DNA of 64,000 bases, from the NCBI RefSeq assembly GCF_900113225.1, contig NZ_FOZE01000001.1:1550001-1614000 (forward strand). Reading direction: 5' to 3'. How positions within the stretch are numbered: the stretch's first letter is position 1; the number at the start of each line of letters is the position of its first letter. The position numbers and the translations under genes are program-made. Source of the stretch: Mitsuaria sp. PDC51 (GTDB lineage Bacteria > Pseudomonadota > Gammaproteobacteria > Burkholderiales > Burkholderiaceae_C). The notes below the pieces were generated by a model that saw only the letters and a list, made by a program, of their open reading frames with translations, ran no database searches and had not been told where the DNA came from. This document shows, piece by piece, positions 5,219-39,804 of the stretch.

Positions 5219-5238
5219 GCGGGCGCGAGCGGGCCGCG

Positions 5239-24557: not shown

Positions 24558-24681
24558 AGTATTGGTTAGACCAATTCAGACTTGCCGACTGACGCGAGCC
24601 AAGGTCGTTCCACTTCGTTCCGCGTCGAGCGGGCGCGCCGGTCCGGGCGCTCATCCGTGCAGAAATCCAAGAGGGGACAAC

Positions 24682-26853
24682 ATGGCAACTGGAAAGGGAC
24701 TGCTGCTGGCAGCGGTCATCGTCGGCGCGCCCGCCTGGGCGCAGAACTGTCAACCGAGCGCGGTCACGCCGTATCTCAACGTCAACGGCACGACGTCCTG
24801 GGTGGCGAAGGCCTCCGCCTCGCTGAACGCGGGGGCGAAGGTCGTGCTCGGACCGCAACCTGTGTCCGGCAACTGGTCGTGGAGCGGCTGCGGCGCCTCG
24901 GGCACGGCCCGCGAGCAGACGCTCAAGCTCACCGCGACCTGCACCGCCACGGCGACCTACACCAACAGCTGCGGGGCCAAGACCACGCAGGCCTTCAACT
25001 TCACGGTGTGGCCAGCCATGGCCGCCAATGCCGGCAAGTTCATCATGGTCGACCAGTTCGGCTATCTGCCCGGCATGAAGAAGGTGGCCGTGCTGCGCCT
25101 GCCCAAGGTCGGCTTCGACAGCAACCAGAGCTACTGGCCCCAGCAGCTGCAGGTGGTCGACGCGGCGACCGGCGCCGTCGTGTACACCGCGTGGCCCCAG
25201 GACTGGAACGGGCTCAAGACCGACGAGTCCTCGGGCGACCAGGTGTGGCACTTCGACTTCAGCCAGGTCACCGCGCCCGGCACCTACGAGATCGTCGATC
25301 CCACCGCCAACCAGCGCTCGGCGCGCTTCGAGATCGGCGACAACGTCTACCGCAACGTGCTGATCCAGGCGGTGCGGATGTTCTATTACCAACGCGCCGG
25401 TCAGGAGAAGACCGTGGCCAACGCCGGCGTGGGCTGGGCCGACGGGGCCAGCCATCTCAAGGGCGGACAGGACCCGCAGGCGCGGCGCTTCCTCGATCCC
25501 AACAACGCCGGCACGGCGCGCGACCTGCGCGGCGGCTGGTTCGATGCGGGCGATCCCAACAAGTACACCAGCTGGGCGGCCGCGTACATCCAGGACCTGC
25601 TGGACGCCTACATCCAGAATCCAACGGTCTGGACCGACGACTTCAATCTGCCCGAGTCCTACAACGGCATTCCCGACCTGCTCGACGAGGTGAAGTGGGG
25701 CACGGACTGGCTGGCGCGCATGCAGAACAGCGATGGCTCGGTGCTGTCGATCGTGGGTCTGGCCGATGGCAGCCCGCCGTCGGCGTCCACCGGTCCCAGC
25801 TACTACGGCGACGCCAGCACGACCGCCACGCTCGCGGCGGCCGCGGCCTACGCGGAGGCGGCCAAGGTCTTCGGCGGCCTCAACAACACGGCGATGAAGA
25901 CGTACGCCGCGGACCTGCTCGCGCGCGCCAAGCGGGCCTGGGCCTGGGCGCAGGCCAATCCCAACGTCCTCTTCTACAACAACGATGCCACCCGCGGCAC
26001 CGGCGGCCTGGGCGCGGGCCAGCAGGAGACCGACGACGCGGGCCGCGCGGAGCTGCGCCTGTTCGCGGCGATCAAGCTGTTCGCCGCCACCGGCGACGCC
26101 ACCTACCGCAGCTACGTCGACACGCATTACACCGAGGCGCCGATGTTCTCGCAGTGGTACGTGTCGGCCTTCAATGCCGGCAACGCGCGCAACCTGCTGT
26201 ACTACGCCTCGTTGCCCGGCGCGACGGCGGACGTCGCCACGGCGATCCGCACCCGCTTCCTCGACCTGTGGGGCCGCAGCGACTACGGCGGCTGGGGCGC
26301 CATCGACGCGCAGACCGATCCCTACCGCGCGTACATCTCGTCCTACACCTGGGGCAGCAACGGGGTGAAGGCCAACGCCGGCACGCTGTTCACGGAGGAG
26401 GGCTACTACGGCATCAGCCGCCACACGCCCGAGCAGGTGGCCACCGCCGCGGCCGACTACCTGCATTACCTGCATGGCGTGAACCCGCTGGGCAAGGCCT
26501 ACCTGACCAACATGACCAGCTTTGGCGCCGAGAACTCGGTGAACCAGATCTTCCACATGTGGTTCGCCGACGGCAGCGCGAAGTGGGATGACGCCAGGAC
26601 CTCGACCTACGGGCCGGCGCCCGGCTACCTCGTGGGCGGGCCCAACTACAACCAGTGGGACTGGGACTCGCGCTGCCCCGGCATTTCTTCGGCCTGCGGT
26701 TCGAGCCGGCCGACGCCGCCCTACGGCCAGCCGCCGCAGAAGTCCTACCTGGACTTCAATACCGGCTGGCCGTTGAACTCCTGGCCCATCAGCGAGCCGT
26801 CCAACGGCTACCAGACCGCCTACATCCGGCTGCTGGCCCGCTTCGTGAAGTAA
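24682..26853 (+). CDS. Secreted glycoside hydrolase family 9 (cellulase-type) enzyme
   Basis: This 723-residue exported enzyme is predicted to hydrolyse beta-1,4-glucan. It has a signal peptide (KGLLLAAVIVGAPAWA), then a short Cys-containing domain (about 20-110) of uncertain type, an Ig-like CelD_N module (KFIMVDQFGYLPGMKKVAVL onward) and the GH9 catalytic barrel. Catalytic base candidates are D288 and D291 in GGWFDAGDPNKY. A conserved C-terminal His region reads LHGVNPLGKAYLTNM. The probable acid is E705 in SEPSNGYQTAYI. No separate cellulose-binding module is recognised unless the N-terminal domain serves. The ATG at 24682 follows GAGGGG and gives the signal peptide; the frame is open further upstream. 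It stands alone and converges on the lectin-fused enzyme. Confidence 0.9.
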   Translation: MATGKGLLLAAVIVGAPAWAQNCQPSAVTPYLNVNGTTSWVAKASASLNAGAKVVLGPQPVSGNWSWSGCGASGTAREQTLKLTATCTATATYTNSCGAKTTQAFNFTVWPAMAANAGKFIMVDQFGYLPGMKKVAVLRLPKVGFDSNQSYWPQQLQVVDAATGAVVYTAWPQDWNGLKTDESSGDQVWHFDFSQVTAPGTYEIVDPTANQRSARFEIGDNVYRNVLIQAVRMFYYQRAGQEKTVANAGVGWADGASHLKGGQDPQARRFLDPNNAGTARDLRGGWFDAGDPNKYTSWAAAYIQDLLDAYIQNPTVWTDDFNLPESYNGIPDLLDEVKWGTDWLARMQNSDGSVLSIVGLADGSPPSASTGPSYYGDASTTATLAAAAAYAEAAKVFGGLNNTAMKTYAADLLARAKRAWAWAQANPNVLFYNNDATRGTGGLGAGQQETDDAGRAELRLFAAIKLFAATGDATYRSYVDTHYTEAPMFSQWYVSAFNAGNARNLLYYASLPGATADVATAIRTRFLDLWGRSDYGGWGAIDAQTDPYRAYISSYTWGSNGVKANAGTLFTEEGYYGISRHTPEQVATAAADYLHYLHGVNPLGKAYLTNMTSFGAENSVNQIFHMWFADGSAKWDDARTSTYGPAPGYLVGGPNYNQWDWDSRCPGISSACGSSRPTPPYGQPPQKSYLDFNTGWPLNSWPISEPSNGYQTAYIRLLARFVK

Positions 26854-26871
26854 GGCGCCCGAGCGCCTCTC

Positions 26872-26900
26872 GCGGCCACGTGCCCTCGGGTCGTGGCCGC
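26872..26900. terminator. Hairpin between convergent genes, probable shared terminator
   Basis: GCGGCCACG (26872-26880) and CGTGGCCGC (26892-26900) form a perfect 9-bp stem with an 11-base loop in the 85-bp gap between two convergent stop codons. There is no T-run on either strand, so it is a weak intrinsic terminator at best. Its position suits a bidirectional 3'-end structure. Confidence 0.4.
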
Positions 26901-26938
26901 TGCCTCGTCGTGGGCGAGCGCTCGAGCGCCTCGGGCGC

Positions 26939-28645
26939 TCAGGGCTTCTGTTTCCAGAGCTGGTTGCCGGCGCCCCGGTAGCGGCTGGTCTTGAGCGCGC
27001 TGCCCGCCGTGCCGGCGCCATCCACCGCCTGGTCGGGCGCGGTGCGCAGCGTGAAGCGGCCGCTCGCGGCATCGAAGCTGAAGCGCTGGTTGGCGCTGCC
27101 GGTGCACTGCGCCACCACGAGGGCGGCGCCGTCGGCATAGCCGCCGCCGTTGTCCAGGCAGATGTGCGGATCGAGCATGCTGCGCACCAGGCCCGTGGTG
27201 GCGTCGTAGTTCCAGGTCTGGCTGACGCTGCCGCTGCAGCTGGCCTGCAGCACGGCGTTGCCGTCCGCGGCCCGCGACTGGTTCAGGTCCATGCACAGGC
27301 CCGACTGGACGTTCACCAGGCGCGTGGCCACGGCCTTGGCGCCGGTGTTCGAGACCACCGGCGCGTAGACCACGCCCAGCTTGTCCACCTCATCGCCGTC
27401 GCGGCCATGGAAGCCGACGATGGCCCAGCCCGACGGCGCGGTGAAGGTGGTGCAGCTGCCGCTCGTGCTGCCGCCGGCCAGCGTGCGGTGCGCGCTGGTG
27501 GTGAAGGCGGCCGAGAAGATGCGGGTCTGGCCCTTGTACTGGTCGGCGCACAGGCTGGCCGAGGTCAGCACCTCGCCATCGGCCAGCGTGAGCGCCTGCT
27601 CGTTGCCGCCGGTGCCGCCGTGTCCGAGCGGGAAGCCGTTGGACAGCACCACCTCGATCCGGTCCACGCGGCTGCCGCTGCGGATCTTGAGCTGGCGCAC
27701 CGCCGGGCTGACGGGCAGCAGGTTCACGTCGTTGAAGCTGGTGCCGTGCGGGCCGCCGACGGTGTCGCTCAGGCGGCGGTTGTCGGCGGCGCTCCACTTC
27801 CATTGCGTGGAGACCGGACGATGGTCCGACAGCTCGGTGCCGTTCGAGTCCACGGCGTCGGTGCGCACCGCATAGCCGGACGGCGTGAGCGTGATCACGC
27901 CATTGCCGCGGAACAGCACCTTGTCCACGACCTCGCAGCTGGCGCTGGTGAAGGCCGGCTCGCACAGGAGCGCGTCGCCCACCGGCGGCACGCTGCCACC
28001 ACGCACGCCCTGGATCCAGGCGTCGGTGAAGCCATGGCGCAGGAACTGGCCCATGTTGTCGCCACTGCGCGTGTAGCGGGTGTTGGTGTCGCCGAACACG
28101 ATCACCGCGTTGCCGGCCGATTCCGACTCGATGTAGGCGAGCATCTGCTCGACGTTCTTGCGGCGCGCGGTCAGGTCCGCGGTCTCCACCTGGGCCTGCG
28201 CGTGCAGGTTGTAGATGTCGACGTAGACGCCTTCGGCCAGGCGCGTGCGCGCCATCGTGAAGCCCTTGGGCGTGAGGCAGTCCACGCCGTTGCAGTCGCT
28301 CCAGCGCACGCGCGCCAGGTCGTCGAACGGGAAGCGGCTCATCGTGTTGAGACCGCTGCCGACGCCGGCGCCGCCGCTGGTCGGGGTGCGGAAGGCGTGG
28401 TCGTCGCAGGCGTCGTACAGGTCGGCGTGGTAGTTGAAGTCCTCCTCCACGTTGACGATGTCGAAGGCCTTGACGTAGCAGCTGATCTTCCTGGTCGCGG
28501 TGGCGCGGTCGCCCGCCGCGCTGGAGGCGCCCTGGGGCAGGCCCGCGACGTTGTAGGCGAGGGTGCTGAAGCTGCCGCTGGCGGCGAAGGCGCCGCCGCA
28601 GGCGAGCAGCGAGGCGAGGGCGAGGGGAAGCAGACGAAGGTGCAT
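26939..28645 (-). CDS. Secreted endonuclease/phosphodiesterase-fold protein with jacalin-like and ricin B lectin domains
   Basis: This 568-residue exported protein has a signal peptide (LRLLPLALASLLACGGAFA). The first 280 or so residues form an endonuclease/exonuclease/phosphatase fold with STLAYNVAGLP, VNVEEDFNYHADLYDAC, YNLHAQAQ, VIVFGDTNTRYTR and LSDHRPVS, so the metal site is intact. A jacalin-type beta-prism spans about 290-420 (GGPHGTSFNDVN, GWAIVGFHGRDGDEVDKLGV). A ricin B-type trefoil spans about 430-568 (LVNVQSGLCMDLNQS, QTWNYD, ANQRFSFD). It could be a sphingomyelinase-like or DNase-like enzyme targeted to glycans. AAGGA precedes the start. Confidence 0.86.
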   Translation of the reverse strand: MHLRLLPLALASLLACGGAFAASGSFSTLAYNVAGLPQGASSAAGDRATATRKISCYVKAFDIVNVEEDFNYHADLYDACDDHAFRTPTSGGAGVGSGLNTMSRFPFDDLARVRWSDCNGVDCLTPKGFTMARTRLAEGVYVDIYNLHAQAQVETADLTARRKNVEQMLAYIESESAGNAVIVFGDTNTRYTRSGDNMGQFLRHGFTDAWIQGVRGGSVPPVGDALLCEPAFTSASCEVVDKVLFRGNGVITLTPSGYAVRTDAVDSNGTELSDHRPVSTQWKWSAADNRRLSDTVGGPHGTSFNDVNLLPVSPAVRQLKIRSGSRVDRIEVVLSNGFPLGHGGTGGNEQALTLADGEVLTSASLCADQYKGQTRIFSAAFTTSAHRTLAGGSTSGSCTTFTAPSGWAIVGFHGRDGDEVDKLGVVYAPVVSNTGAKAVATRLVNVQSGLCMDLNQSRAADGNAVLQASCSGSVSQTWNYDATTGLVRSMLDPHICLDNGGGYADGAALVVAQCTGSANQRFSFDAASGRFTLRTAPDQAVDGAGTAGSALKTSRYRGAGNQLWKQKP

Positions 28646-28780
28646 GGGAAGTCCTTGGTGGATGCTCGGAAAGCCGGCGCATCTTCTTCACGCCAGGTGA
28701 CGCCCCAGTGGCGGAATCCTCTCCAGGACATCACCGATGCCCGCCGCGTCGCCATGTGGGCAGAGTGGCGGGTCCCCGAC

Positions 28781-29275
28781 TCATCGATCGAGCCGCGAGG
28801 CCTTGGCGATGCCCGCCAGGGCGCATTGCTCGTCCAATTGGCCGCCGGGGGCGCCCCCCACGCCCACGGCGCCGATGACCTCGTCGCCCACCTTCACGGG
28901 CACGCCGCCGCCCAGCAGCAGGAAGCCGGGGATGTGCGCGAGGTTCGCTGCCGCGGGGACCCGTTGCGCGCGCTCCATCATCGTCAGCGTGTTTTCCCGG
29001 GCCGACGCCGCGGTGTAGGCCTTCAGGCGGCTGGAATCGATCGTGTGAGGGCCGCTGCCGTCGGCGCGCTGGACGGCGCGCACGGTGCCCGCGCGGTCCA
29101 CCACCGTGGCGCTCACGGCATAGCCGTTGGCGCTGCAGGTGGCCACGGCCTGCGCCGCGATCTGCGTCGCGAGCTCCAGCGACATGTCCTTGCGATCGCG
29201 CAGGCCTTCGGCATGGGCGGCGCCGACGGCGATCAGCGACAGGGTGACGGCGACTTTGGCGAGGGAATGCTGCAT
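28781..29275 (-). CDS. HbpS/GlcG-family heme-binding protein, exported
   Basis: This 164-residue protein has a signal peptide (SLAKVAVTLSLIAVGAAHA) and the compact GlcG/HbpS domain. Visible motifs are ELATQIAAQAVATCSANGY, SATVVDRAGTVRAVQRADG, DSSRLKAYTAASARENT, HIPGFLLLGGGVPVKVGDEV and IGAVGVGGAPGGQLDEQCA, all family landmarks. In Streptomyces, HbpS binds heme outside the cell and modulates the SenS-SenR two-component system. Here it lies divergent from a histidine kinase/FixJ-type pair, with 162 bp of shared upstream region, which suggests a similar accessory sensor role. The minus-strand frame stays open far upstream, but the ATG at 29275 gives the signal peptide. Confidence 0.85.
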   Translation of the reverse strand: MQHSLAKVAVTLSLIAVGAAHAEGLRDRKDMSLELATQIAAQAVATCSANGYAVSATVVDRAGTVRAVQRADGSGPHTIDSSRLKAYTAASARENTLTMMERAQRVPAAANLAHIPGFLLLGGGVPVKVGDEVIGAVGVGGAPGGQLDEQCALAGIAKASRLDR

Positions 29276-29437
29276 ATGTTTTCCGGTAACGACCTTCTGC
29301 GGTGGGGGCCGGCACCACCCGTTGTGGCGCCGTGAGCGGACTGTAGAAAGGCCGCCTCTTCCCGCCCATTCGGTCGGCCACGCGCGCGCCTCCGTACAAC
29401 TACGCAGTGCGCGACGGCGGCCGCCGCCGGCCCCAGA

Positions 29438-30961
29438 ATGCCGGCCATGATCGGAACTGGACGCGGTGGTCCCGCAAGGCTTGGTGTGGCGGCCCTGCTC
29501 GTGTGGGTGGTGGTGGCGTGCGCGGGCGCGGCCTTCCTCGCCCATGCGCGCCTGCAGGAGCTGCGGGCCGATTTCGAGACCGACGGGCGGATCGCACACC
29601 GCCGGATCAGCCAGCGGGTGGTCCAGTACGACGCGGTGATGGCCACGCTGACCCTGCTGCAGCCCACGGCCGTCGAAGGCGGGGCGCCGGTCACGCGCCT
29701 CGCGTCGGTGTATCCGCAGATCCTGACCGTCCTGCAGCGGACCGCCGCCGGTGCCTGGCCCACCCTGCTGGCGGCCCCGCTGGCGGCCGCGGAGGCGGCT
29801 TCGCGCGCGTCGGGCCGGCCCGAGATGGCCTTGGCCGATCTGCGCGCGGGCCGTTATTACCTGGTGATGGCGGGGTCCCCGGCGAGCTACGCGCTGCAGA
29901 TCGACCTGAAGGCCACGGTGCCCTATGACGAGTGGCCCATGGATGTCGCCTCCAGCCCGGTCCGCGTCACGCTGGAACTGGGGGACGCGGCCTTCGTGGT
30001 GCAGCCGGGCCGCCCTCGGCAGGCCAGCGTGGGATGGACCTACGACTTCCACAAGCGCCTCATGGTGCGGAGCCAGCCCCTGGACGTCGTGGCCCACCGC
30101 ACGGTTGAACTGCGCGAGCTGCCCTGGCTGGCCATCCTGGCCTGGTGCGCGCTGACGGCGGGCGCGGGGGCCGGCGGCCTGGCCGCATGGCGCCAACGCG
30201 CATCGCGTCGGCGGATGGAGGAGCTGCTGCGCCTGGGCCAGGTCGCCCGCCTCAATGCGCTGGGCGAGCTGGCGGCGGGGATGGCGCATGAGCTGAACCA
30301 GCCGCTGACGGCGCTGCTGTCCAGCACGCAGGCGGCGAAACGGCTGCTGGTCGAAGATCCGCCCGAACTCGACGCCGCCCGGACCGCCATGGTCCGCGCC
30401 GTGGAGCAGGCCCATCGCGCCTCGGCGGTGGTGGGGCGGCTGCGCCGGCTGGTGGAACGCCCGGACCTGGCGGCCGACGTGCAGCCCTTGTCGCTGGCCG
30501 CCGCCACGCAGGACGTGCTGCGCCTGCTCGAGCCCGACCTGGCGGAGCGCCGGATCGCGACCACGGTCTCCACCGACCCCGGGCTGCCTTCGGTGCTCGC
30601 GGAGCCGATCTCGCTGCAGCAGATCATCCACAACCTGCTGATGAACGCGCTGCAGGCGCTGGAGCAGGTGCCGCCTGGCGAGCGTCGTCTGAGCATCGCC
30701 ATGACGGCGGCGGAGCACGGACAGGCCACGCTGTCGGTGCGCGATCAAGGTCCCGGCATCGCGCCGGAGGCGCGTCGGCGCCTGTTCGAGCCGTTCTACT
30801 CCACGCGTCCGGGCGGCCTCGGGCTGGGCCTGACGCTGTGCGAAAGCCTGGCGCAGGCCATGGGCGCGCGCCTGACCCTGGCGCCCCAGGCGCCGTCGGC
30901 ACCGCGCGGGGCCGAGTTCATCCTGACCCTGTCCAGCGTCGCGGCTAGCCATGACCGATAA
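29438..30961 (+). CDS. Membrane sensor histidine kinase, DctB/FixL-like core
   Basis: This 507-residue inner-membrane kinase has a first membrane segment (LGVAALLVWVVVACAGAAFL), a periplasmic domain of about 190 residues that may be CHASE-like, and a second membrane segment near residue 235. The phospho-acceptor is H284 in AAGMAHELNQPLTALLSST, and the ATPase domain has IIHNLLMNALQAL, DQGPGIAP, FEPFYSTRPGGLGLGLTL. The HELNQPL H-box is typical of kinases paired with FixJ-type regulators. It overlaps the FixJ-like gene by 11 nt, so they form a pair. The divergent HbpS-like gene suggests heme, iron or redox as the signal; this is inference. Translation might start 9 nt downstream at a second ATG. 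Confidence 0.9.
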   Translation: MPAMIGTGRGGPARLGVAALLVWVVVACAGAAFLAHARLQELRADFETDGRIAHRRISQRVVQYDAVMATLTLLQPTAVEGGAPVTRLASVYPQILTVLQRTAAGAWPTLLAAPLAAAEAASRASGRPEMALADLRAGRYYLVMAGSPASYALQIDLKATVPYDEWPMDVASSPVRVTLELGDAAFVVQPGRPRQASVGWTYDFHKRLMVRSQPLDVVAHRTVELRELPWLAILAWCALTAGAGAGGLAAWRQRASRRRMEELLRLGQVARLNALGELAAGMAHELNQPLTALLSSTQAAKRLLVEDPPELDAARTAMVRAVEQAHRASAVVGRLRRLVERPDLAADVQPLSLAAATQDVLRLLEPDLAERRIATTVSTDPGLPSVLAEPISLQQIIHNLLMNALQALEQVPPGERRLSIAMTAAEHGQATLSVRDQGPGIAPEARRRLFEPFYSTRPGGLGLGLTLCESLAQAMGARLTLAPQAPSAPRGAEFILTLSSVAASHDR

Positions 30962-31577
30962 CGCCTCGTCCCTCTCGCCGCTGATCCATCTGGTGGACGA
31001 CGATGCCGCGGTGCGCGACGGCCTGAGCCAGCTCATCGGCACGGTGGGACTGCGCGTGCGGGCCTGGGCGGATCCGCAGGTGTTCCTGGCGGAGTTCGAT
31101 CGCGCGGGCATCGGCGCCATCGTCCTGGACCTGCGCATGCCGGTGATCGGCGGGATGACGGTGCTGGAGCGCTTGCTGGCGGGCGGCGTGGACCATCCGG
31201 TCATCCTGCTGACCGGCCACGGCACCGTGGAGATGTGCCGGCGTGCCTTCAAGGCCGGTGCCGCCGAGTTCCTGGAGAAACCCGTCGACGACGAGGTGCT
31301 GATCGAGGCTTTGCAGAGTGCCGTCCGGCAGCACGTGCGCTCGCGCGAGCGGCACCGGGCCGATCGGCAGGCGCGCGAGTGCTACGCCCAGTTGTCGCCG
31401 CGCGAGCGCGAGGTGCTCGGTTTCATCGTCGAAGGCCTGACCAACAAGGAGATCGGGCGCGCGTTGACCCTGTCGCCGCGCACGGTGGAGACCCACCGGG
31501 CCAACCTGTTCGCCAAGCTCGGGATGGACTCGCTGGCGCAACTGATACGGCGGTTCGCGTCCATCGCGCAAGCCTGA
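30951..31577 (+). CDS. FixJ-type response regulator (receiver plus LuxR HTH)
   Basis: This 208-residue transcription factor has a receiver domain with DD acidic pocket, phospho-acceptor D60 in VLDLRMPVIGGMTV and Lys in FLEKPVDDE. A FixJ/NarL-type helix-turn-helix follows: LSPREREVLGFIVEGLTNKE and SPRTVETHRANLFAKLGMDS. Its length matches FixJ (about 205). It is cotranscribed with the upstream kinase (11-nt overlap). Targets are not visible; autoregulation and control of the divergent heme-binding protein are plausible. The large propeller kinase downstream also belongs to a class that phosphorylates HTH regulators, so cross-signalling is possible. Confidence 0.93.
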   Translation: MTDNASSLSPLIHLVDDDAAVRDGLSQLIGTVGLRVRAWADPQVFLAEFDRAGIGAIVLDLRMPVIGGMTVLERLLAGGVDHPVILLTGHGTVEMCRRAFKAGAAEFLEKPVDDEVLIEALQSAVRQHVRSRERHRADRQARECYAQLSPREREVLGFIVEGLTNKEIGRALTLSPRTVETHRANLFAKLGMDSLAQLIRRFASIAQA

Positions 31578-31768
31578 TCCGCGCCGGATCCTGACGACGT
31601 CCTGTCCAAGGCATCACCAATGAATCACGCAGGATCGGCCGTCGCTGAATGGCCGACAACGATGCCAAGTTCAGGCGCAGGATTGAAGGTTTTCGCGCTT
31701 CTTCGTCCATGCGACCCCCGGATTCCTGCAGCCGTTCCGTCAGCCCGGACCCGTCCAAGGCCCCCGCG

Positions 31769-34700
31769 ATGCGCAGGCGCATCGCGGGGTGGGCCCTTGC
31801 CGCCCTGGCCGCGGGGCTCGTGCTGGCCGGCGCGGGCGCGCGGGCCGAGCGCATCGTGCTCGAGTCCTACCAGGAAGACCAGGGCCTGACCAACCTCACC
31901 TCGCAGTGCCTGGTGCAGGACCCGCGGGCGAGGCTGTGGATCTGCACCGCCAACGGGCTGTTCAGGTTCGACGGTTTCCGCATCCATGCGGAACCGCTGC
32001 CGAAGGAGGCGGGAGGGTATTCATACGGGGCTCGCGTGGACGTCAGCGGCCGCCTCTGGCTCCTGACGGAAGGGGGCGTGTTCGTGCGCGACGACGGGCG
32101 CAAGGACGGGCAGGACGGCCCCGCCTGGACGGAGCTGCTCAAGCCCGACGGCAAGCACCTGCACGTCACCTCCGGCCAGCAGCTGGAACTGGACCGGCAG
32201 GGCAGGGTCTACGCCATCGATGAAGACCGGCTCCTCTGGACCGCCACCGCCGCGGGTGCGCTGGGCAGCTCGCTGATGGTTCAGCGGATGGCCATTCCCC
32301 AGCTGCAGTCCCGCCCCGAGCAACTGCTCCCGATGCGGCAACGCGGCGAGGCGCTCTGGTTCGGCTGCGGCTCGCAGCTGTGCGAGTGGCGCGATGGCCG
32401 CGTGCAGCAGTGGGGGCCGGCGCAGGGTCTGCCGCAAGACGTGTGGGGCCAGCTCCTCGTGTCGCGCGATGGCAGTCTCTGGACGCGCAGCAGCCGGCGC
32501 CTGGCCCGGCTGGCGCCCGGCTCGACGCGCTTCGCCGTCGTGGCGGCGCCACCGCGGCAGTGGGTGTATGGCGACAACGGCCTGGCCGAGGACGAGCACG
32601 GCCTCATCCTCGTCCTGACGACCCGCGGCCTTGCCGCCTGGAACGGCGAACGCTGGCGCGAGTGGACCCAGGACGACGGCCTGCCGGAGACACCGCTGCG
32701 CGGGCTGATGTTCGACGCGGAAGGGTCGTTGTGGCTGGGCACCAATGCGCGCGGCGTCCATCGCTGGATCGGCTACGGCCGGGCGGAGCATTGGACCGGC
32801 GCCTCGGGCCTGCCCGCGCCGGCCGTGCTCGACGTGGCGCGCGACGGAAAGGGCCGGCTCTGGGCGGCGACCGCGAACGGCGTGGCCTGGTTCGACGCCG
32901 CGGCCCGCAGGTTCCGCAAGGTGAAGCTGCCGACGACCCGGCCGTCCGGCCTGGTCCATCGCCTGGCGGTGGACCAGGCGGGGGACCTGTGGTGGGTGGA
33001 CGCCGGCCAGGTGATCCGCGTGAAGGCCGGAGAGGACCAGGGGCGCGTCGTTGCCAGCGATACCGGACTGCAGACGATCTCGCAGGGGGCCGGTCGGGTC
33101 TACGCGTCCGGCAGCGACGGCCTCGAGCTGATCGAGCTGTCCGAGGGGCGCCTGCGCCGCCACAAGATCGGCGCCGGGCGCTTCGATCCGCGTTATGACA
33201 TCCGCGTCCTGTCGGACGGCGCGCGGGAGGACTTCGTCGTCAGCGGACGGGATCTCTGGCGGTACCAGCCGGAGGGCTGGACCCCCGTGGCGGACGCGCA
33301 GGGCGATTGGATCGACGCGCTGCAGGCGATGGTGCTGGACCACACGGTGTGGGCGGGAGGCACGTCGGGACTGGGCATCCACGCGCTGTCGGGGGCCACG
33401 GCGCGCCAGTTGCAGTTCCTGCCCAAGTCCGCCTTCGGGGGCGCGGCCGCGGCCAGCCTCCATGCCGACCTCGACGGGCGGCTGTGGATGGGCACCGACC
33501 AGGGGGTCTTCATCCGCTCAACCGGGGGCGACTGGTCGCGGCTGGATCGCCGCACCGGCCTGGTCTGGAACGATGTGACGCCGGCTTTCCTGGCCGACGC
33601 CGACGGCAGCATCTGGATCGGCACCGGCGCCGGGTTGACGCACCTGCTGCCGGGGAACACGCAAGCGCCATTGCCCGCGCTGCGGCTGGAGGACATGGTG
33701 TTCGGCAGCACGAGCACCCGGGTGCCGCCGTTGGAGCCGGTGCCGTGGCGGGACCGCACGCTGCGCATCGCGGTGGGGACGGCTGGTTTCTCCCGGGCGC
33801 GTTCGCTGCGGATCGAATACCGCCTTGGCGCGGAGTCGCCCTGGCGGACCTCGCAGAGCGCCGTGATCGACCTGGGCGCGCTCGAGTCCGGCGAGCACAC
33901 GCTGGAGGTGCGCGCCGGCGGGCTGACGAGCGTGGAAGCACCGGGGCCGGTGATGCGCCTTGCGTTCGACGTGCTTCCTCCCTGGTGGAACTCGCGCGAG
34001 GCACGCGCCGCGGCCGCCGTGTCCTTGATGCTGCTGTGGTGGCTGTCCATCCGATGGTCGCGCCGGCGCGATCGCGAGCGGCAACGGCAACTGGAAGCCG
34101 CCGTCGCGGAACGCACCGCGGCCCTGGCGGACTCGGAGGCGGCGCTGCTCCGTCTGGGCGAGTACAACGCGCATGCCCTGGAGGAGGAGCGATTGCGCGT
34201 CTCCCGCGAGCTGCATGACGAGCTGGGCCAGCAACTGGCCGCGCTGAAGATGGAAGTGTCCGTGGCGAAGATGCGGCAGAACGCCGGCGGTTCGGCGCAT
34301 TCCCTGGATCCGGACCTGTTGCTGGGTCGTGTCGACCGGCTGGTGAGCACGGTGCGCGGTCTGGTGTCGCAGTTGCGGCCTTCGGCGCTGGATGGCGGCC
34401 TCGAAGCGGCGCTGCAATGGCTGGCGGCTGAGTTCACGTCCAACACCGCGTTGCCTTGCAGCCTGCAGGTGGACCCGGACACGCGCGAGATCCCGTTGCC
34501 GATGGCCACGATGGTGTTCCGCATCGCCCAGGAGTCGCTCACCAACGTGCGACGCCATGCCCAAGCCAGCCGCGCCTCCCTGCGCTTGGCGCGCGAAGGC
34601 GCCGGCTGGCTGTTGAGCATCGGCGACGACGGCATCGGCTTCGATCCGCTCGCCCGCCGGGACGGCTTCGGAGTGCTGGGCATGCAGGAGCGCGCCCGGC

Positions 34701-34789
34701 TGCTCGGTGGCAGCCTTCAGGTGCAGAGCGAGCCGGGGGCGGGGACGCGGGTGGTGCTGGGCTTTGCGGCGGGGACGGTGGTGGGTTGA
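31769..34789 (+). CDS. Propeller-type (Reg_prop/Y_Y_Y) sensor histidine kinase, NarX-like core
   Basis: This is a giant inner-membrane sensor of 1006 residues from the ATG at 31769 (in-frame ATGs at 31649 and 31709 would add 40 or 20). After a signal segment (GWALAALAAGLVLAGAGARA), the periplasmic part is built of two-component-regulator propeller repeats, such as ARLWICTANGLFRFDG, GRLWLLTEGGVFVR, GSLWLGTNARGVHRW and GRLWMGTDQGVFIRS, then a Y_Y_Y strand domain. A membrane helix (VSLMLLWWLSIRW) precedes a HisKA_3 core with H816 in RVSRELHDELGQQLA and a HATPase with GDDGIGFDP and GFGVLGMQERARLLGG. Such cores signal to NarL/FixJ-type regulators; the nearest is 191 nt upstream. Confidence 0.9.
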   Translation: MRRRIAGWALAALAAGLVLAGAGARAERIVLESYQEDQGLTNLTSQCLVQDPRARLWICTANGLFRFDGFRIHAEPLPKEAGGYSYGARVDVSGRLWLLTEGGVFVRDDGRKDGQDGPAWTELLKPDGKHLHVTSGQQLELDRQGRVYAIDEDRLLWTATAAGALGSSLMVQRMAIPQLQSRPEQLLPMRQRGEALWFGCGSQLCEWRDGRVQQWGPAQGLPQDVWGQLLVSRDGSLWTRSSRRLARLAPGSTRFAVVAAPPRQWVYGDNGLAEDEHGLILVLTTRGLAAWNGERWREWTQDDGLPETPLRGLMFDAEGSLWLGTNARGVHRWIGYGRAEHWTGASGLPAPAVLDVARDGKGRLWAATANGVAWFDAAARRFRKVKLPTTRPSGLVHRLAVDQAGDLWWVDAGQVIRVKAGEDQGRVVASDTGLQTISQGAGRVYASGSDGLELIELSEGRLRRHKIGAGRFDPRYDIRVLSDGAREDFVVSGRDLWRYQPEGWTPVADAQGDWIDALQAMVLDHTVWAGGTSGLGIHALSGATARQLQFLPKSAFGGAAAASLHADLDGRLWMGTDQGVFIRSTGGDWSRLDRRTGLVWNDVTPAFLADADGSIWIGTGAGLTHLLPGNTQAPLPALRLEDMVFGSTSTRVPPLEPVPWRDRTLRIAVGTAGFSRARSLRIEYRLGAESPWRTSQSAVIDLGALESGEHTLEVRAGGLTSVEAPGPVMRLAFDVLPPWWNSREARAAAAVSLMLLWWLSIRWSRRRDRERQRQLEAAVAERTAALADSEAALLRLGEYNAHALEEERLRVSRELHDELGQQLAALKMEVSVAKMRQNAGGSAHSLDPDLLLGRVDRLVSTVRGLVSQLRPSALDGGLEAALQWLAAEFTSNTALPCSLQVDPDTREIPLPMATMVFRIAQESLTNVRRHAQASRASLRLAREGAGWLLSIGDDGIGFDPLARRDGFGVLGMQERARLLGGSLQVQSEPGAGTRVVLGFAAGTVVG

Positions 34790-34818
34790 GGTCGAACGAA
34801 TTGTGAGCGGAGGGAGGT

Positions 34819-35128
34819 ATGCCATGGCGAAGGATGAGGCGAGTCAGCATGGCCTCAACGCCCTCCGATTCAAGTACGCCGAGCGGCCGACATTTGATCG
34901 TCTTGTCGATCACTCGAAAGCGGTGGGACGGGCCCGATCCGGACAAAGCATGCGGCCAACCGCGACCGCGCCCGTGAGATCGTCAGTCATTTGTTTGCGG
35001 GTAGCACCCACATCGTCCGACGCAGCGTCAGCGAGGCGATAGATGCAGGCGGGCTGAGCATGTTGGACCCTAATGTGCGAAGCGCAGCGTTCGCCGATTT
35101 CCATCGAGCCTGCGACAAGAGCAGGTAG
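34819..35128 (+). pseudogene. Short gene remnant with a probable one-base frameshift
   Basis: A strong ribosome site (GGAGGGAGG) precedes ATG 34819, whose frame gives HLIVLSITRKRWDGPDPDK before losing sense. One base over, the frame continues as KHAANRDRAREIVSHLFAGS and THIVRRSVSEAIDAGGLSM to a TAG at 35126-35128, with protein-like composition and G/C-rich third positions. The shift falls in an AAA run at 34945-34947, where one extra A would explain it. A third frame from ATG 34824 (MAKDEASQHGLNALRFKYAE) also looks plausible for the N-terminus. I do not recognise the product. The remaining bases to 35497 show no supported gene. Confidence 0.35.
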
Positions 35129-35497
35129 ACGCCGCATGTCATGAACAGCCCTGCACCCACTGCTCCCTGTTGCCATACTCCGGCGTAGAACATCGGCAGC
35201 CGGCGTGCAACGACTTCCAGAACATGCGATCGCATCTTGGGTCGACGACGGGTCGCGCAGCCATGGCCAGGGCCCGCATGATCGCTACCAGCGCCGGGCA
35301 ACGGGTCCTTCGTCAAAGCCACGAAGCTGATGGCAAAGAATGCGTCGGTGGGCCGGCCGGCAGGGCGGTAGTGAACAAGGAGACGCTGAGCGGGCACGCT
35401 GTGGCTTCGAAGGCTCACGCAAAGCCGACCGCCTAGAAAGCGCCTAGCTCGAAGTAGGCCAGCTAGCCCAGCCTCACGTCGAAAACGCGGCTAAGCT

Positions 35498-36961
35498 TCA
35501 CGGGAGATCGCGAAGAATGATATCCAACTGATGTGCTGCGACGCCCACCTCAGGAACGAAGGCACTGTCTGGCCGATATGCCTTTATGCAAACACCGGGA
35601 TGGATTAGGTTTCGCCACTCTCGCAAGTTCTCGGGGATGTCCAGCGTTCCAAGATTCAACAGGCCGCGAGCGCCTCGCATTAGGTTGTTGAGGTTCCACG
35701 ACGTCGGATCAGTGGAAACCTCAAAATTCTTTGGATTCAGGCGAGCGGCCGCTGCTACGGCCAGATCAGCGGCTGTCTGCCGCTTGAGGAAGTCCATAAG
35801 CACTGCCTCAAGGGCGGTGCCGAATCCTGCCAGGGCAATACGACAACTTCCGTTCCGGTAGGCGCCCACTGCGCCCTTCTGTGCAGCGTAGGCAATTTCC
35901 CGGAGCTGCGTGTCGGTGACGTTCTGGAAGCGGGTCAACTCCAGTGGAAATAGCACAGCACGACGCGCTACAGGCGCTGCGACCTGTGAGAACTGGGGGC
36001 TGCTGGTAGCCATGTGCGCGTAGAGCCGATTGCGGAAATGCAAATTACCCGCCCTTCGCTCCATCACTCCAAGGACGACAAGAAATCGTTGATCCTCGTT
36101 GCCGGCCGCAAGAGGTACTGGCTGACCGGTAGCAGCAGATGACACGATGCCGCTCAGCGCCGCGTCGCCCAACACGCGACGGAAGAGGTTGCTGATGTGG
36201 TCGCTCGTCGAAAGGCGGTCGGCTTCAGCGGCAATGGCTGCTTGCGGATCGTCGGTCCCAAGAATCGCTTGTATCAGCCGCTGGACCAAATACGGTTGGC
36301 CGCCGACTGCCTCATGGATCATCGTCGCGACCTCAGGCGGGTTTGCAAGGCCGCCCCTTTCGGCCAGACGCTGAATGTCGTTGACCACCAAATCAGCGGT
36401 GTCGATCCGTTCGCAGATGTTGAACGGCGAGTTGGCTTCCGCGACTAGGCGCTCAGGACGGAACGTGCCGGCGAACACGAAGCGCAGTCGCTTCGCGATA
36501 TGACCATCATCCGCAGCCGCGCGTTCACTTGAAATGGCGCGCAATTGGCCGAAGAAGGAGTTGCGCCACTGATCGTTGTCGATGGTGGACGCCTCATCGA
36601 TCAGGACCACCACTGGGCCCGCCCCGGCTGGCAACGCGCAGGTAAGGGCCGCCGACAAGTCATCGGTCTCGTCAATCACGACGTCATGTCTCAACGCCGA
36701 GGCCACTTTTCGAGCAAACCACGTCGTCAGCTGCGCATAGGCGGTGAATGGCGGCTGGGCCTGAAGGTCCACCATGGCAGTTGGCGTCGCATTCTCATTG
36801 AGCGTCCGCCGCAGGCGCAACAGCGCAGAAGTCTTGCCGTGTTGACGTGGGCCGAGCAGCAGCACCCACCGGCCGGCCTGGATTTGTCGGACAAGGTCTA
36901 GCTCGAACGGACGTTCTGCATAGTCGCCGTCATCAAGTGGAACTGGTCCCTGCAGATGCAT
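35498..36961 (-). CDS. AAA-like (AAA_35-type) P-loop ATPase with a C-terminal RNxIHP domain
   Basis: This 487-residue cytoplasmic protein starts with GPVPLDDGDYAERPFE, then P-loop GPRQHGKTS (37-45, K43), a strand MVDLQAQPP and Walker B VVVLIDEAS (D122-E123). Sensor-like RFVFAGTFRPERL and a helical lid with GGQPYLVQRLIQAIL follow. This order is typical of AAA-like ATPases of the STAND-related AAA_35 group. The C-terminal 150 residues end in LREWRNLIHPGVCIKAY (R450 to H454). That motif recalls helical HEPN-type domains but with non-canonical R-x3-H spacing. It is the second gene of an operon, 14 nt after the larger ATPase with AGAAGGAAG before its ATG. Function unknown; defence is a hypothesis. 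Confidence 0.75.
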   Translation of the reverse strand: MHLQGPVPLDDGDYAERPFELDLVRQIQAGRWVLLLGPRQHGKTSALLRLRRTLNENATPTAMVDLQAQPPFTAYAQLTTWFARKVASALRHDVVIDETDDLSAALTCALPAGAGPVVVLIDEASTIDNDQWRNSFFGQLRAISSERAAADDGHIAKRLRFVFAGTFRPERLVAEANSPFNICERIDTADLVVNDIQRLAERGGLANPPEVATMIHEAVGGQPYLVQRLIQAILGTDDPQAAIAAEADRLSTSDHISNLFRRVLGDAALSGIVSSAATGQPVPLAAGNEDQRFLVVLGVMERRAGNLHFRNRLYAHMATSSPQFSQVAAPVARRAVLFPLELTRFQNVTDTQLREIAYAAQKGAVGAYRNGSCRIALAGFGTALEAVLMDFLKRQTAADLAVAAAARLNPKNFEVSTDPTSWNLNNLMRGARGLLNLGTLDIPENLREWRNLIHPGVCIKAYRPDSAFVPEVGVAAHQLDIILRDLP

Positions 36962-36975
36962 GCGGCTTCCTTCTA

Positions 36976-39498
36976 TTAGTCGTTGTAGTGGCTTAAGGCT
37001 TGGCTGAACCAGGAGGCCCGCATTTGCAATTGCCCATCACGCTCCTCTACGACGCCGTAGAGCCTGAGCATGCGTAGAGCGCCCGCCAACGTGTTTTCAC
37101 CCCATGCGGTTTCGTCGCCAGGTAGACGCTCAATGATTTCGGCTGAGGTGGTGGCACCAGCGGCTACGGCGCGACTAACTGCCTTCTCGAATGGCGTGGC
37201 TTGGCCCCAGTAGGTCGTGAGGTAGTGTTCTGCAAACTCAAACGTCTCTGTCGTGTCGACAACGTCCTCTGCGGACAAAGTCAGATTTCGCCGGTCTGCG
37301 CGATCGTCTAGTGAACGAATCAGTCGATCGCCAAGGTATTGAACGATTTGCGGGTGCCCACTAGTCCGAGACCAAGCTTCGTTCTCGAAGGCTGATCCGT
37401 CCACGATCTGGATGTTCATGGCTCGTAGGGGGTCGATCAACAAGGATAGCGCATCGCTCCTATCAAGCTGAGCCAGTTGGACCTCACGACAGAAGTTCCA
37501 ATGAGGAGAGAGCGGGTCCCATAGGCGATTTGCGATACGCCGCTCGCCCGAGAAGACGAAGTGTGCTGCGCCTTCTTGTGATAGTGACCGGCAAGCCCTG
37601 AAGAAGCCCTCCGGCACTGAATCGTTCGAAGGGGTGCTGTCCCAGTCCAGCAACTGATCAATCTCGTCCAGGATGATGACGACTTGCCCTTCGCCTCTCT
37701 CGCCAAGTTTCGCGACGAGGTCTGCCATATGGTCTGGTCGAAAATCTGCCTGCAGGTCAACTCCCCACTTGCGCCGCGCAAGATCGCCGAAATCTGCCCA
37801 CGTGCGGACTGTCTGGCAGTCTCCAAAGTAGGTCTGGAACCGCATATTGCTGAGTTCTAGTTGCAGTCGTCTGATGAGGGACGTCTTTCCGATACGCCGG
37901 CTTCCAAGAATGGCCACGCTGTTGGTTGCAATAGTCTGCAGAACGGTCGCCGCTTCCCTCTCCCGCCCGTAAAACATGCGCGCCGGTGTGGCGTTGTTGA
38001 GGATGTACGGGCTGACCTTGGTTAGGTCCGACTGCGTCAATACAAAGTCCATCAACGGCAAAATCGGACGCCGGCGTTCGGCCATGCTTTCCAAATGATC
38101 CGGGCTAAGCACGACCACATTGGTTGGCAAGAAGATCTGACTTTTTCGATGGGCTTGAAGCTGCTCAGCATCAAGCTGATGGGGCGCCAGATAGATGGCA
38201 ACAGGTGACCCCGGCGCCTGTTCAATCGACTGCTGTGCCACCGTTCGTGCTCGCTCAGGCGTCAAGGGCGCAGAGTTCGACGCCACATGAAGCCGGGATG
38301 CGAACGGTTGGATCTGAGGGGCAACAAGGTCTGCAGTCGTATCGAGCAAGCCAATGCTCGAACGCGGATCCCCGACCATCTCGGCGAACAGAGCAATTGC
38401 CTGGCCAGTGCTGAAGTTCCGTTTCAGTGTCCGGGCGCGCTCAACCCATGGACGACGCCCCCAGCTCACAGACTGTGCACCGTCCCCCAGCTCCAACGCG
38501 ATTTGGTGTCGTCCTTCCGCATAGCTTGCAAGAGCGAGCCTTGCCTGGTTAGGGCCAACCGGAAGGTCTTCTGCACGAACCTCCAATCGTGTCCTAAGGC
38601 CTTCTTCGATGATCTTGTCGAGGGCCACCCTCTCGACGGTCCTTGGCGCGTCAACGGTGGCTGCTTGTTTAATTGCCTCAGCCAAGCTGCCACTCTCAGC
38701 TTGAGCCAGGCTCATTGGATAGCGAACCGCCTCGAACAGGGTCGACAGCGTGCGATCAGAAACTTCCTTCAAACCCTGACCGTCGGCGAGCAGGATCAGA
38801 GCCATGCCGAGCTCAGTCATGCGCTCTTGCAGATTGGGGTAGGTAAAGGCAAGGTCTCGTTGCTGTCGTCCGCCGGATTGATTCTGAAAGACGGTAGCCA
38901 CACCGGCGACAGGCCTGTTGCCCACTGCAAGGACATGGGTCAAGCTGCGACGTAGGCCGGCATCGACGAGTGCCGCTGAATTGACAGATACCTTGACTTG
39001 CAGGCTCGCGTTGGCGGCACCTACGGCGGCATGAACCAGCCGATGAGTCCGCGTTTCCATCTCGCCCGCGGACCTGAACCTACGCTTGTAGCTGTCTTTG
39101 TAGACCTCAGCCACACGCAGCAGGGCTTCGACAGGTGTGTCGGTTCGAAGAATTCGACCCAGTCCGACATGGAGCAGCTGGCCCGCGACCCAGTCCGCTC
39201 GGTTGGACCCATGTGAAAGGAACTGTGGTAGCCCCCATTTCTCGACCTGGCTGCCACTCGTGTTGAAGGCGATCAAATCGAGAAACAGGGGATATGACAG
39301 AGGCTTCGTTCGAAGAAATTCTGCCAATCGGTCACGACTCAGATCACCCTCGTTGACCAGTAGCTGAATCTCATGGACGGCGTTTGCAGTGTTTCGCTGC
39401 TGCAGCTCGATAGCTGGCCAATCAATGAAGTCCCTCTCTGCTAGGAGGTTCGGTGATACCGACGAGCGAAAGGCAGCAATTGTTTCTTCGATGGTCAT
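36976..39498 (-). CDS. Large protein with a REase-like N-terminus, AAA ATPase and winged-helix end
   Basis: This 840-residue cytoplasmic protein has several regions. Residues 175-262 (VDAGLRRSL, QSGGRQQRDLAFTYPNLQER, LADGQGLKEVSDRTL) resemble the core of DpnII/MboI-type endonucleases, but the usual catalytic Glu position reads Ala201. Residues 280-490 are unassigned. An ATPase domain (about 505-700) has FYGRER, P-loop GSRRIGKTS (532-540, K538), Walker B VVIILDEIDQLL (D611-E612) and FVFSGERRIANRLWDPLSPH. The end (about 745-840) looks like a winged helix. This suggests an ATP-gated effector. The ATG at 39498 is preferred over a TTG one codon earlier. It is co-transcribed with the downstream ATPase. 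Product not recognised as a named system. Confidence 0.75.
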   Translation of the reverse strand: MTIEETIAAFRSSVSPNLLAERDFIDWPAIELQQRNTANAVHEIQLLVNEGDLSRDRLAEFLRTKPLSYPLFLDLIAFNTSGSQVEKWGLPQFLSHGSNRADWVAGQLLHVGLGRILRTDTPVEALLRVAEVYKDSYKRRFRSAGEMETRTHRLVHAAVGAANASLQVKVSVNSAALVDAGLRRSLTHVLAVGNRPVAGVATVFQNQSGGRQQRDLAFTYPNLQERMTELGMALILLADGQGLKEVSDRTLSTLFEAVRYPMSLAQAESGSLAEAIKQAATVDAPRTVERVALDKIIEEGLRTRLEVRAEDLPVGPNQARLALASYAEGRHQIALELGDGAQSVSWGRRPWVERARTLKRNFSTGQAIALFAEMVGDPRSSIGLLDTTADLVAPQIQPFASRLHVASNSAPLTPERARTVAQQSIEQAPGSPVAIYLAPHQLDAEQLQAHRKSQIFLPTNVVVLSPDHLESMAERRRPILPLMDFVLTQSDLTKVSPYILNNATPARMFYGREREAATVLQTIATNSVAILGSRRIGKTSLIRRLQLELSNMRFQTYFGDCQTVRTWADFGDLARRKWGVDLQADFRPDHMADLVAKLGERGEGQVVIILDEIDQLLDWDSTPSNDSVPEGFFRACRSLSQEGAAHFVFSGERRIANRLWDPLSPHWNFCREVQLAQLDRSDALSLLIDPLRAMNIQIVDGSAFENEAWSRTSGHPQIVQYLGDRLIRSLDDRADRRNLTLSAEDVVDTTETFEFAEHYLTTYWGQATPFEKAVSRAVAAGATTSAEIIERLPGDETAWGENTLAGALRMLRLYGVVEERDGQLQMRASWFSQALSHYND

Positions 39499-39602: not shown

Positions 39603-39631
39603 AAAAAAAAAACAGCCCCAGTGGGCTGTTT
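39603..39631 (-). terminator. Intrinsic terminator downstream of tRNA-Ala
   Basis: AAACAGCCC (39610-39618) and GGGCTGTTT (39623-39631) form a 9-bp stem with a CAGT loop. On the minus strand the stem is followed by ten T residues (A-run 39603-39612 on the plus strand). It lies about 100 bases past the tRNA 3' end and just before the ATPase operon, so it should stop tRNA read-through into that operon. Confidence 0.88.
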
Positions 39632-39728
39632 AAATTTAGAGATGCAATCGGCCCATGGACATACGGTCTGCACCACTGCAAGCGGATGCTTATAAAGTGG
39701 CAGATTTCCCTCTGAGGCCTGGATGTGT

Positions 39729-39804
<76 letters not shown>

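Follow-up and report, generated by a model that had tools for sequence, protein, structure and literature searches.

What are the two large ATPase genes that lie side by side near a tRNA gene in Mitsuaria sp. PDC51? They were analysed in a window of 64,000 nucleotides, the whole stretch of DNA to which all positions refer. Both genes are on the minus strand, have intact frames and are spaced by 14 nt, exactly where the original prediction had placed them: the P1 gene at positions 36976–39498 (840 aa, counted from the ATG) and the P2 gene at 35498–36961 (487 aa). An in-frame TTG is found one codon 5′ of the P1 ATG. The alignment of P1 with two homologues starts at the Met of the window's protein, and in the homologous ORFs a start may lie three codons upstream of the aligned Met. 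The distinct base composition noticed earlier was confirmed. The segment has 57–60% GC against about 70% in its surroundings (0.573–0.605 per kb at 35–40 kb versus 0.686–0.777 at 28–35 and 40–46 kb), and the GC3 values of the two genes are 0.62 and 0.66 versus 0.895–0.945 in three neighbouring genes. P1 combines a degenerate DpnII-like domain, a Rossmann-like segment, an AAA/STAND-like ATPase and a probable winged helix, and P2 an AAA_35 ATPase and an unnamed C-terminal domain. To judge from sequence comparison, the pair is probably a horizontally spread defence operon with P1 as the sensor and P2 as the effector.

The tRNA-Ala(CGC) gene (39729–39804, minus strand) is an integration hotspot: downstream of it, the DNA was unlike that of the window in all 10 same-genus loci fetched. 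In five of these, similarity to relatives extended leftwards to position 39702 at most, inside the hairpin after the tRNA, and in the other five it ended at 39721–39726; this limit would place the acquired segment's right edge at 39701/39702. A terminator with a 9-bp stem and a T run (39610–39631, minus strand) lies within this segment, oriented as if to end transcription from the tRNA upstream of it. The predicted strong terminator between the genes and the tRNA is present, but the scan found three sites where shuffled sequence would give 4.7, and it is remarkable for its strength alone. To the left, P2 is adjoined by decayed-looking DNA with no long ORF and intermediate GC (34790–35497), and similarity to G010, the closest relative examined, resumes only at 24.5 kb. 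A search of the window for another copy of the tRNA end found none, so no att pair is available to delimit the island. At the same tRNA site, G010 carries a repeat-flanked island with a TIR-ATPase gene (TIR_2, 7.9e-9; PADLOC PDC-S59, 4.4e-24). ThiF/YcaO/MFS genes are among the cargo that a relative carries at the hotspot.

A single scan across 84,980 species genomes, using exact short patterns with P1 as the query, found two further P1 loci, in a Mesorhizobium MAG and in Aurantimonas. P2 lies directly downstream of P1 at all three loci with a full-length P1 (window included), and the conserved co-occurrence proposed as a check in the original prediction is therefore seen in every known case. 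The homologues are co-linear with the window's genes and 58–63% identical to them, each of the two genomes has one P2, and both pairs are likewise low in GC in high-GC hosts. P1 was found in none of the 15 same-genus genomes and not in plasmid and phage records, and pattern scans of IMG/VR returned nothing. The patchy occurrence and the base composition together strongly suggest a horizontal gain of the operon. There was no tRNA at the 12.9-kb Mesorhizobium locus (L026, which begins 410 nt before P1) or at the 22.5-kb Aurantimonas locus. The proposed tRNA-proximal siting is borne out in that the tRNA is a hotspot where G010 carries a candidate defence gene, but the tRNA link is limited to the window's genome. 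Between the three loci, no significant similarity was detected outside the two genes, and no common promoter or terminal repeats were found. The matches L002, L004, L005, L006, L008 and weaker ones were rejected as homologues of the system: their likeness to P1 covers the ATPase core with some of the sequence around it, and their N-termini differ.

As the original prediction held, the pair is not a named system: neither protein had a full-length match in Pfam, NCBIfam or PADLOC 2.0.0. The PADLOC matches were weak and concerned the ATPase parts only (best PDC-S27, 2.7e-5, residues 508–613), and a literature search found no description of the pair. At the three loci, flanking genes from a simple longest-ORF list were scanned (10 against PADLOC and 10 against Pfam). 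They were housekeeping or regulatory where the match was clear, with generic PADLOC matches (ABC ATPase, Hsp70, LuxR). The expected enrichment in defence islands was not borne out, as the scanned genes form none.

P2 starts with an AAA_35 ATPase domain (residues 4–315; 36017–36952, minus strand; Pfam AAA_35, 1.7e-21) with intact Walker A and B motifs (GPRQHGKTS/VLIDEAS), related to the P1 ATPase (35% identity, E 8.9e-5). It ends in a putative effector domain (residues 346–487; 35501–35926, minus strand). In the seven-sequence alignment A7, window included, E385, W422, R450, N451, I453, H454 and P455 are invariant; the RNLIHPG noted at the end of P2 is present, and its R, N, I, H and P hold in 7/7 tails. 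The relatives of the tail are other proteins of about 273–300 aa, and among the matches listed, restriction or nuclease genes adjoin them in five of seven other contexts examined. This count leaves out H44 (a plasmid match over 88% of the tail protein), H46 and H47 (both from the species of L084) and 52 further matches. The tail protein lies between hsdS and hsdR in L052, adjoins an ORF judged by eye to be hsdS in L021, and overlaps an MmeI-type IIG enzyme in L055, a helicase in L082 and a PIN nuclease in L084; its neighbours in L053/L054 included no recognisable restriction gene. Six of the seven tail proteins examined have one N-terminal domain in common, which is joined to Abi_C in L083 and to an Mrr nuclease in L085, indicating that the P2 tail occupies an effector position. 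Pfam and NCBIfam matched none of the tail proteins scanned, and the only PADLOC match was a weak one to a single carrier (0.0066).

The HEPN motif, as given in PMC3710099, is R-x4-6-H with a polar residue after R. P2 has three residues between R450 and H454 (R450-N-x-x-H454), which departs from the usual spacing; with R447-x6-H454 the motif would be matched in six of the seven aligned tails, L021 having K. Profile comparisons lent no support to a HEPN assignment of the tail: with profiles of 2–7 sequences, hhalign gave E 0.062 with Abi_C and 0.28 with DUF4145, and the HEPN HMM scores were inside the shuffle range. AlphaFold2 with three-sequence alignments gave poor models (mean pLDDT 43.5 for P1 and 45.2 for P2; below 50 over residues 247–487 of P2), and a search by sequence for solved relatives of both proteins found none useful.

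It could be argued that the two signalling ATPases form a module for regulation or stress outside defence, carried as neutral or niche cargo. In line with this, the neighbouring genes at the three loci are housekeeping or regulatory where they match clearly, the other P1 ATPase-core matches have different N-termini and no evident defence role, and a relative carries ThiF/YcaO/MFS cargo. However, the restriction or nuclease genes around the tail, its exchange of position with Abi_C and Mrr, and the rarity and patchy occurrence of the pair argue against it, and we regard such a module as rather unlikely.

The original prediction described the N-terminus of P1 as endonuclease-like. Residues 10–277 (38668–39471, minus strand), about 268 residues, matched an eight-member DpnII HMM with 17.1 bits for whole P1. 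The N-terminal regions of the three P1s scored 23.2–24.9 bits, and the best of 3000 shuffles 8.5. Pfam DpnII gave 22.0 bits (E 1.1e-4) on the N-terminal 300 residues, 1 bit short of the cut-off of 23, and 18.2 bits on whole P1. A three-member HMM gave 11.2–12.4 bits versus 4.1 for shuffles, BLASTP from P1 to L042 gave 3e-7, and the reverse HMM test placed L042 and L049 on top, with L051 absent from the best 12 matches. In hhalign, shallow DpnII and P1 alignments were not significant (E 0.055); the deeper set of eight gave the clear match. By sequence, homology of the P1 N-terminus to the DpnII family (PF04556) over the domain length is firm. The conserved D, E, N and K (D...ExN...SK), which we take to be catalytic, are present in 8/8 DpnII enzymes and none is kept in the three P1s. 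Hence, the family likeness in the original description stands and the conserved residues of the enzyme are gone, so that a sensor role for P1 is likelier than a nuclease role.

P1 might still be a DNA-cutting effector, active via a rearranged active site, with P2 as its regulator. The degenerate domain is retained among the P1s (57% identity to the window), with FQNQSGGRQQRDL invariant and ADGQG strongly conserved in 3/3, and the acidic residues E148 (D in the other two), D179, D215 and D239 remain. Nevertheless, the loss of all four residues conserved in 8/8 enzymes leaves this a quite improbable role. A type II restriction pair was rejected as well. No methyltransferase of Dam type was recognised among the ORFs adjoining the pair at the three loci (410 nt upstream in L026), while annotated plasmid DpnII genes had one next door in 5/5 fetched.

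A beta-alpha Rossmann-like segment (residues 385–475; 38074–38346, minus strand) precedes the P1 ATPase; pLDDT was 50–84 per ten-residue block over residues 351–490, and the segment is partly aligned in L002 and L006. The predicted AAA ATPase (residues 497–735; 37294–38010, minus strand) has AAA_22 as its best match (7.9e-11) and intact Walker A and B motifs (GSRRIGKTS/IILDEID); ATPase_2 (3.3e-5) and nSTAND1 (2.2e-4) were each below the cut-off. Residues 736–840 (36979–37293, minus strand) are probably a winged helix. The proposed winged-helix-like end fits the helix and hairpin order of the weak model (pLDDT 61–80 per block over 761–830).

TniB/ExeA-type ATPases belong to the AAA_22 family. 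The AAA_22 match of P1, the REase-like fold and the adjoining tRNA would suit transposition or integration machinery, with TnsC/TniB-like ATPases and a TnsA-like nuclease fold. Such machinery is very unlikely and a Tn7-like element was rejected, because no transposase or integrase ORF was recognised next to the pair, the three loci show no significant similarity outside the two genes, and no exact repeats flank the pair in the stretches tested (12 nt for Aurantimonas, 11 nt for the window). That the operon is a decaying, non-functional remnant of a larger island, as the worn DNA at 34.8–35.5 kb and the missing second tRNA end might hint, is hardly credible given full-length frames that are co-linear with their roughly 60% identical homologues and given the retained Walker and RNxIHP motifs.

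For the favoured sensor–effector defence operon, we infer the following order of action, with phage as the target. The degenerate DpnII-type domain of P1 would bind nucleic acid or some phage structure attached to DNA, the winged helix probably sharing in binding, and this would switch on the P1 ATPase. P1 may then recruit or signal to the related ATPase of P2, which would release its C-terminal domain, most likely an RNase-type (HEPN-like) toxin using R450/N451/H454, and abortive infection may follow. Of the sensor/effector defence reading in the original prediction, the pair, the hotspot and the company of the tail speak for it, but the conserved DpnII residues are absent, and neither an AVAST-type repeat sensor nor, among the flanking genes scanned, a defence island was found. 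More tentatively, an ATP-driven immune switch may have a cutting-dead restriction enzyme as its recognition part, which would read DNA, perhaps GATC or its methylation state; the second ATPase would then fire an RNase-like domain without a name, which restriction operons also use as a removable module.

If true, an unnamed two-ATPase immune system would be added, and a restriction-enzyme fold would be re-employed as a sensor. A worn-out DNA-cutting enzyme may have turned into a guard that senses and then activates a partner protein with a toxin-like tail. The system would also flag an effector-like domain in restriction operons (E...W...RNxIHP), for which Pfam and NCBIfam gave no match and which can be searched for and assayed separately. 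That the pair is rare and stands alone may be a reason why screens based on islands could overlook it.

Among known systems, the DpnII/MboI-family type II enzymes are homologous along residues 10–277, whereas P1 lacks their D, E, N and K, is fused to an ATPase and has no recognised methyltransferase neighbour. Avs/AVAST and other STAND-type defence proteins combine a nuclease-like module with a STAND/AAA-type ATPase, a logic common to the pair. However, Avs has a C-terminal repeat sensor within one large protein, whereas the pair consists of two smaller proteins with a degenerate nuclease-like domain. A Pfam search of P1 and P2 for a repeat sensor domain found none (TPR_14, E 0.98), and the AVAST-like architecture first proposed is not upheld. 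In Abi_C (PF14355) abortive infection proteins and related restriction-operon proteins, Abi_C or the Mrr nuclease takes the position of the P2 tail on an N-terminal domain common to them, in whose place P2 has AAA_35. PrrC and RloC, described in PMC3710099 as HEPN anticodon nucleases with an ATPase, resemble P2 in joining an ATPase to a C-terminal RNase-type domain and in their link to restriction systems. They differ in that their ATPase is of the ABC type, whereas P2 has AAA_35 and a putatively HEPN-like tail, and in that their partner is an hsd operon, whereas the partner of P2 is P1.

The original prediction described two large ORFs of one operon, and the sequence bears out the ORFs with their sizes, the 14-nt gap, the adjacent tRNA-Ala and the drop in GC content. 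P1 (840 aa) occupies positions 36976–39498 of the window on the minus strand and is directly followed by P2 (487 aa, 35498–36961, minus strand). The tRNA-Ala(CGC) gene lies at 39729–39804 on the same strand, and the terminator at 39610–39631 has the same direction as the tRNA. Third-position GC was 0.62 in P1 and 0.66 in P2 versus 0.895–0.945 in three neighbouring genes. Based on Pfam annotation, P1 contains AAA_22 (7.9e-11), and residues 4–315 of P2 are AAA_35 (1.7e-21), beyond which P2 had no Pfam match. The two ATPase domains are related (35% identity, E 8.9e-5). Computation shows a conserved operon of related, intact ATPases, with a degenerate DpnII domain in P1 and a C-terminal domain of P2 (residues 346–487, the tail) in effector position.

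A single scan of 84,980 species genomes with exact 8-residue P1 patterns, which detects close relatives only, gave 29 matches, two of which encode a P1 relative: a Mesorhizobium MAG (L026, 63% identity) and the alphaproteobacterium Aurantimonas endophytica (L027, 62%), both spanning residues 1–840. P2 starts 22 nt past P1 in L026 (58% identity) and 27 nt past it in L027 (61%), and is the only P2 match in either genome. Both genes of these pairs have a GC content of about 51–58%, and the surrounding DNA about 60–76%. Since the three loci share no significant similarity beyond P1 and P2, the two genes themselves look like the transferred unit. Horizontal gain of the operon is strongly suggested. 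All counts that follow include the window's own genome wherever it was sampled. P1 had matches in 2 of 100 genomes of relatives (the 15 other members of the genus in this set had none) and in 9 of 398 from a phylum sample; with a three-sequence P1 profile, 3 of 385 genomes from another class of the same phylum gave a match. Apart from the window, these matches are confined to the ATPase core and the parts adjoining it. In the order, 4 of 399 genomes had a P2 match, at full length only in the window. P1 had no match in 72,556 plasmid and 50,697 phage records; for P2 there were 30 matching plasmid records, chiefly cyanobacterial, and the matches listed fall within residues 1–338. IMG/VR pattern scans gave no match, nor did searching complete E. 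coli genomes at the DNA level. Other ATPases related to P1 (L002, L005, L006, L008 and L004; open frames of 560–933 aa) have a membrane-like segment, as judged by eye, and a RISPYQTRGG-like motif ahead of Walker A.

The tRNA-Ala site was compared in 10 of the 15 same-genus genomes (G001–G010; 6.4–14.8 kb past the tRNA from each). Similarity starts at window 39702–39726, and none of the ten loci resembles window 28.0–39.7 kb past the tRNA. In G010, the closest by DNA flanking the tRNA, a repeat-flanked 3.3-kb island occupies the same site (L031 (G010:C256), 2326–5712), with the tRNA-Ala 3′ end repeated 3.4 kb off (L031, 5665–5712). Inside it are a 501-aa ATPase–TIR gene of 48% GC (TIR_2, 7.9e-9; PADLOC PDC-S59, 4.4e-24) and, recognized by eye, a fragment resembling an integrase and an ORF resembling an endolysin. 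A second repeat copy is likewise present in G008 (L039); in the window the tRNA end has no second copy. About 10 kb past the same tRNA, G008 encodes an AAA_21 ATPase with AriA/PtuA-type PADLOC matches (L039:13889–15346). G002 (L033) carries ThiF, YcaO and MFS genes at this site. On the left side of the operon, similarity to G010 resumes at window 24.5 kb. A high-GC block at 24500–34800, encoding a response regulator and also a large sensor kinase, is not beside this tRNA in G010; this could reflect either a second insertion specific to the window's lineage or a deletion in G010.

Beyond its DpnII domain, P1 has a Rossmann-like segment, then the ATPase, and ends in a probable winged helix. The Pfam DpnII match (residues 22–272) is below the cut-off of 23, scoring 18.2 bits with whole P1 and 22.0 with its N-terminal 300 residues. 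An HMM was built from eight DpnII members: L042 (genome), L049 and L051 (viral contigs; L050, identical to L049, was excluded) and five annotated plasmid enzymes, each adjoined by a methyltransferase gene. Against it, the N-termini of the three P1s scored 23.2–24.9 bits (shuffle maximum 8.5, n=3000), and whole P1 17.1 bits (residues 10–277). An earlier three-member HMM gave 11.2–12.4 bits (shuffle maximum 4.1). In the reverse test, L042 (13.2) and L049 (8.6) exceeded the shuffle maximum of 4.5, with L051 outside the best 12 rows; hhalign of the shallow DpnII and P1 profiles was not significant (E 0.055), and a P1 N-terminal profile search found no solved relative. D, E, N and SK-pair columns, the presumed active site in view of their conservation, are conserved in 8/8 DpnII enzymes, and the three P1s have none of these residues there; of the (S/T)DGxGW motif further along, they retain the DG.

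The P2 tail also matched a 273-aa protein adjoining an ORF read by eye as hsdS (L021). A profile including this protein matched 5 of 299 genomes, the window's own among them; the other four (L045–L048) were read in context as L052–L055. The L052 protein is flanked by hsdS and hsdR (both by Pfam), with a 587-aa ORF past hsdS that, by position alone, is read as hsdM. The L055 gene overlaps an MmeI-type IIG enzyme, that of viral contig L082 a helicase, and that of plasmid L084 a PIN protein, with an integrase nearby; no restriction gene was spotted by eye near the tail proteins of L053 and L054, both from one genus. Of the seven non-P2 contexts inspected, five thus contain restriction or nuclease genes, further plasmid matches lying outside this count. 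An unnamed family of about 275 aa, with the tail as its C-terminal domain, is located inside or beside restriction operons (L052:8502–9326, L055:3747–4574, L021:1432–2250 and L082:276–1106); these four members have no Pfam match. The N-terminal domain of six of the seven tail proteins (L084 excepted) recurs joined to Abi_C in L083 (2.3e-13) and to Mrr_cat in L085 (3.1e-9), so the P2 tail takes the place of an abortive-infection or nuclease effector; mainly for this position it is called an effector. The N-terminal domain–Mrr nuclease fusion of L085 (L085:3073–3876, Agrobacterium tumefaciens pAt) lies beside genes for a HamA protein and a DEAD helicase, and its neighbours also include genes annotated as AbiEi/AbiEii. 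Columns invariant in 7/7 aligned tails (three P2s, L021, L052, L053 and L055) include E385, W422, R450, N451, I453, H454 and P455. From the E...RN..H pattern, our best guess is that the tail is a HEPN domain, although profile tests failed to show this identity.

The neighbours of the three loci count against a defence island and against the sensor–effector defence reading. Ten flanking genes were compared with PADLOC and ten with Pfam (nine shared), a subset of neighbours from a simple longest-ORF list. Pfam matches were GNAT, Hsp70, HbpS-like, ABC transporter, hydrolase–LuxR, SnoaL-like, response regulator, NlpC/P60 and AMP-binding, one of the ten genes having none; PADLOC matches were generic: ABC ATPase (best mad3, 2.9e-31), Hsp70 (PDC-M61B, 2.6e-10) and LuxR (3.5e-6). 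We nevertheless suggest that P1–P2 is probably a sensor–effector defence operon. P1 would sense nucleic acid via the degenerate DpnII domain and/or the winged helix and assemble with P2, driven by ATP; the P2 tail would then act as a nuclease toxin, with abortive infection as the outcome. The specific form, a dead restriction enzyme as sensor and an RNase-like tail, is a tentative and rather unlikely proposal.

No description of the P1–P2 pair or of a DpnII–ATPase fusion was found in the literature searched, which is weak evidence of absence, as most subscription papers were outside its scope. The pair is not described in the accessible portions of PMC12839542, PMC4081073 and PMC13092281; in that of PMC12839542, DpnII is mentioned solely in the title of a reference. 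The available part of PMC3710099 defines the HEPN motif, reports links of HEPN genes with restriction systems and mentions a DpnII/MboI N-terminal helical domain joined to HEPN, an architecture other than that of P1–P2.
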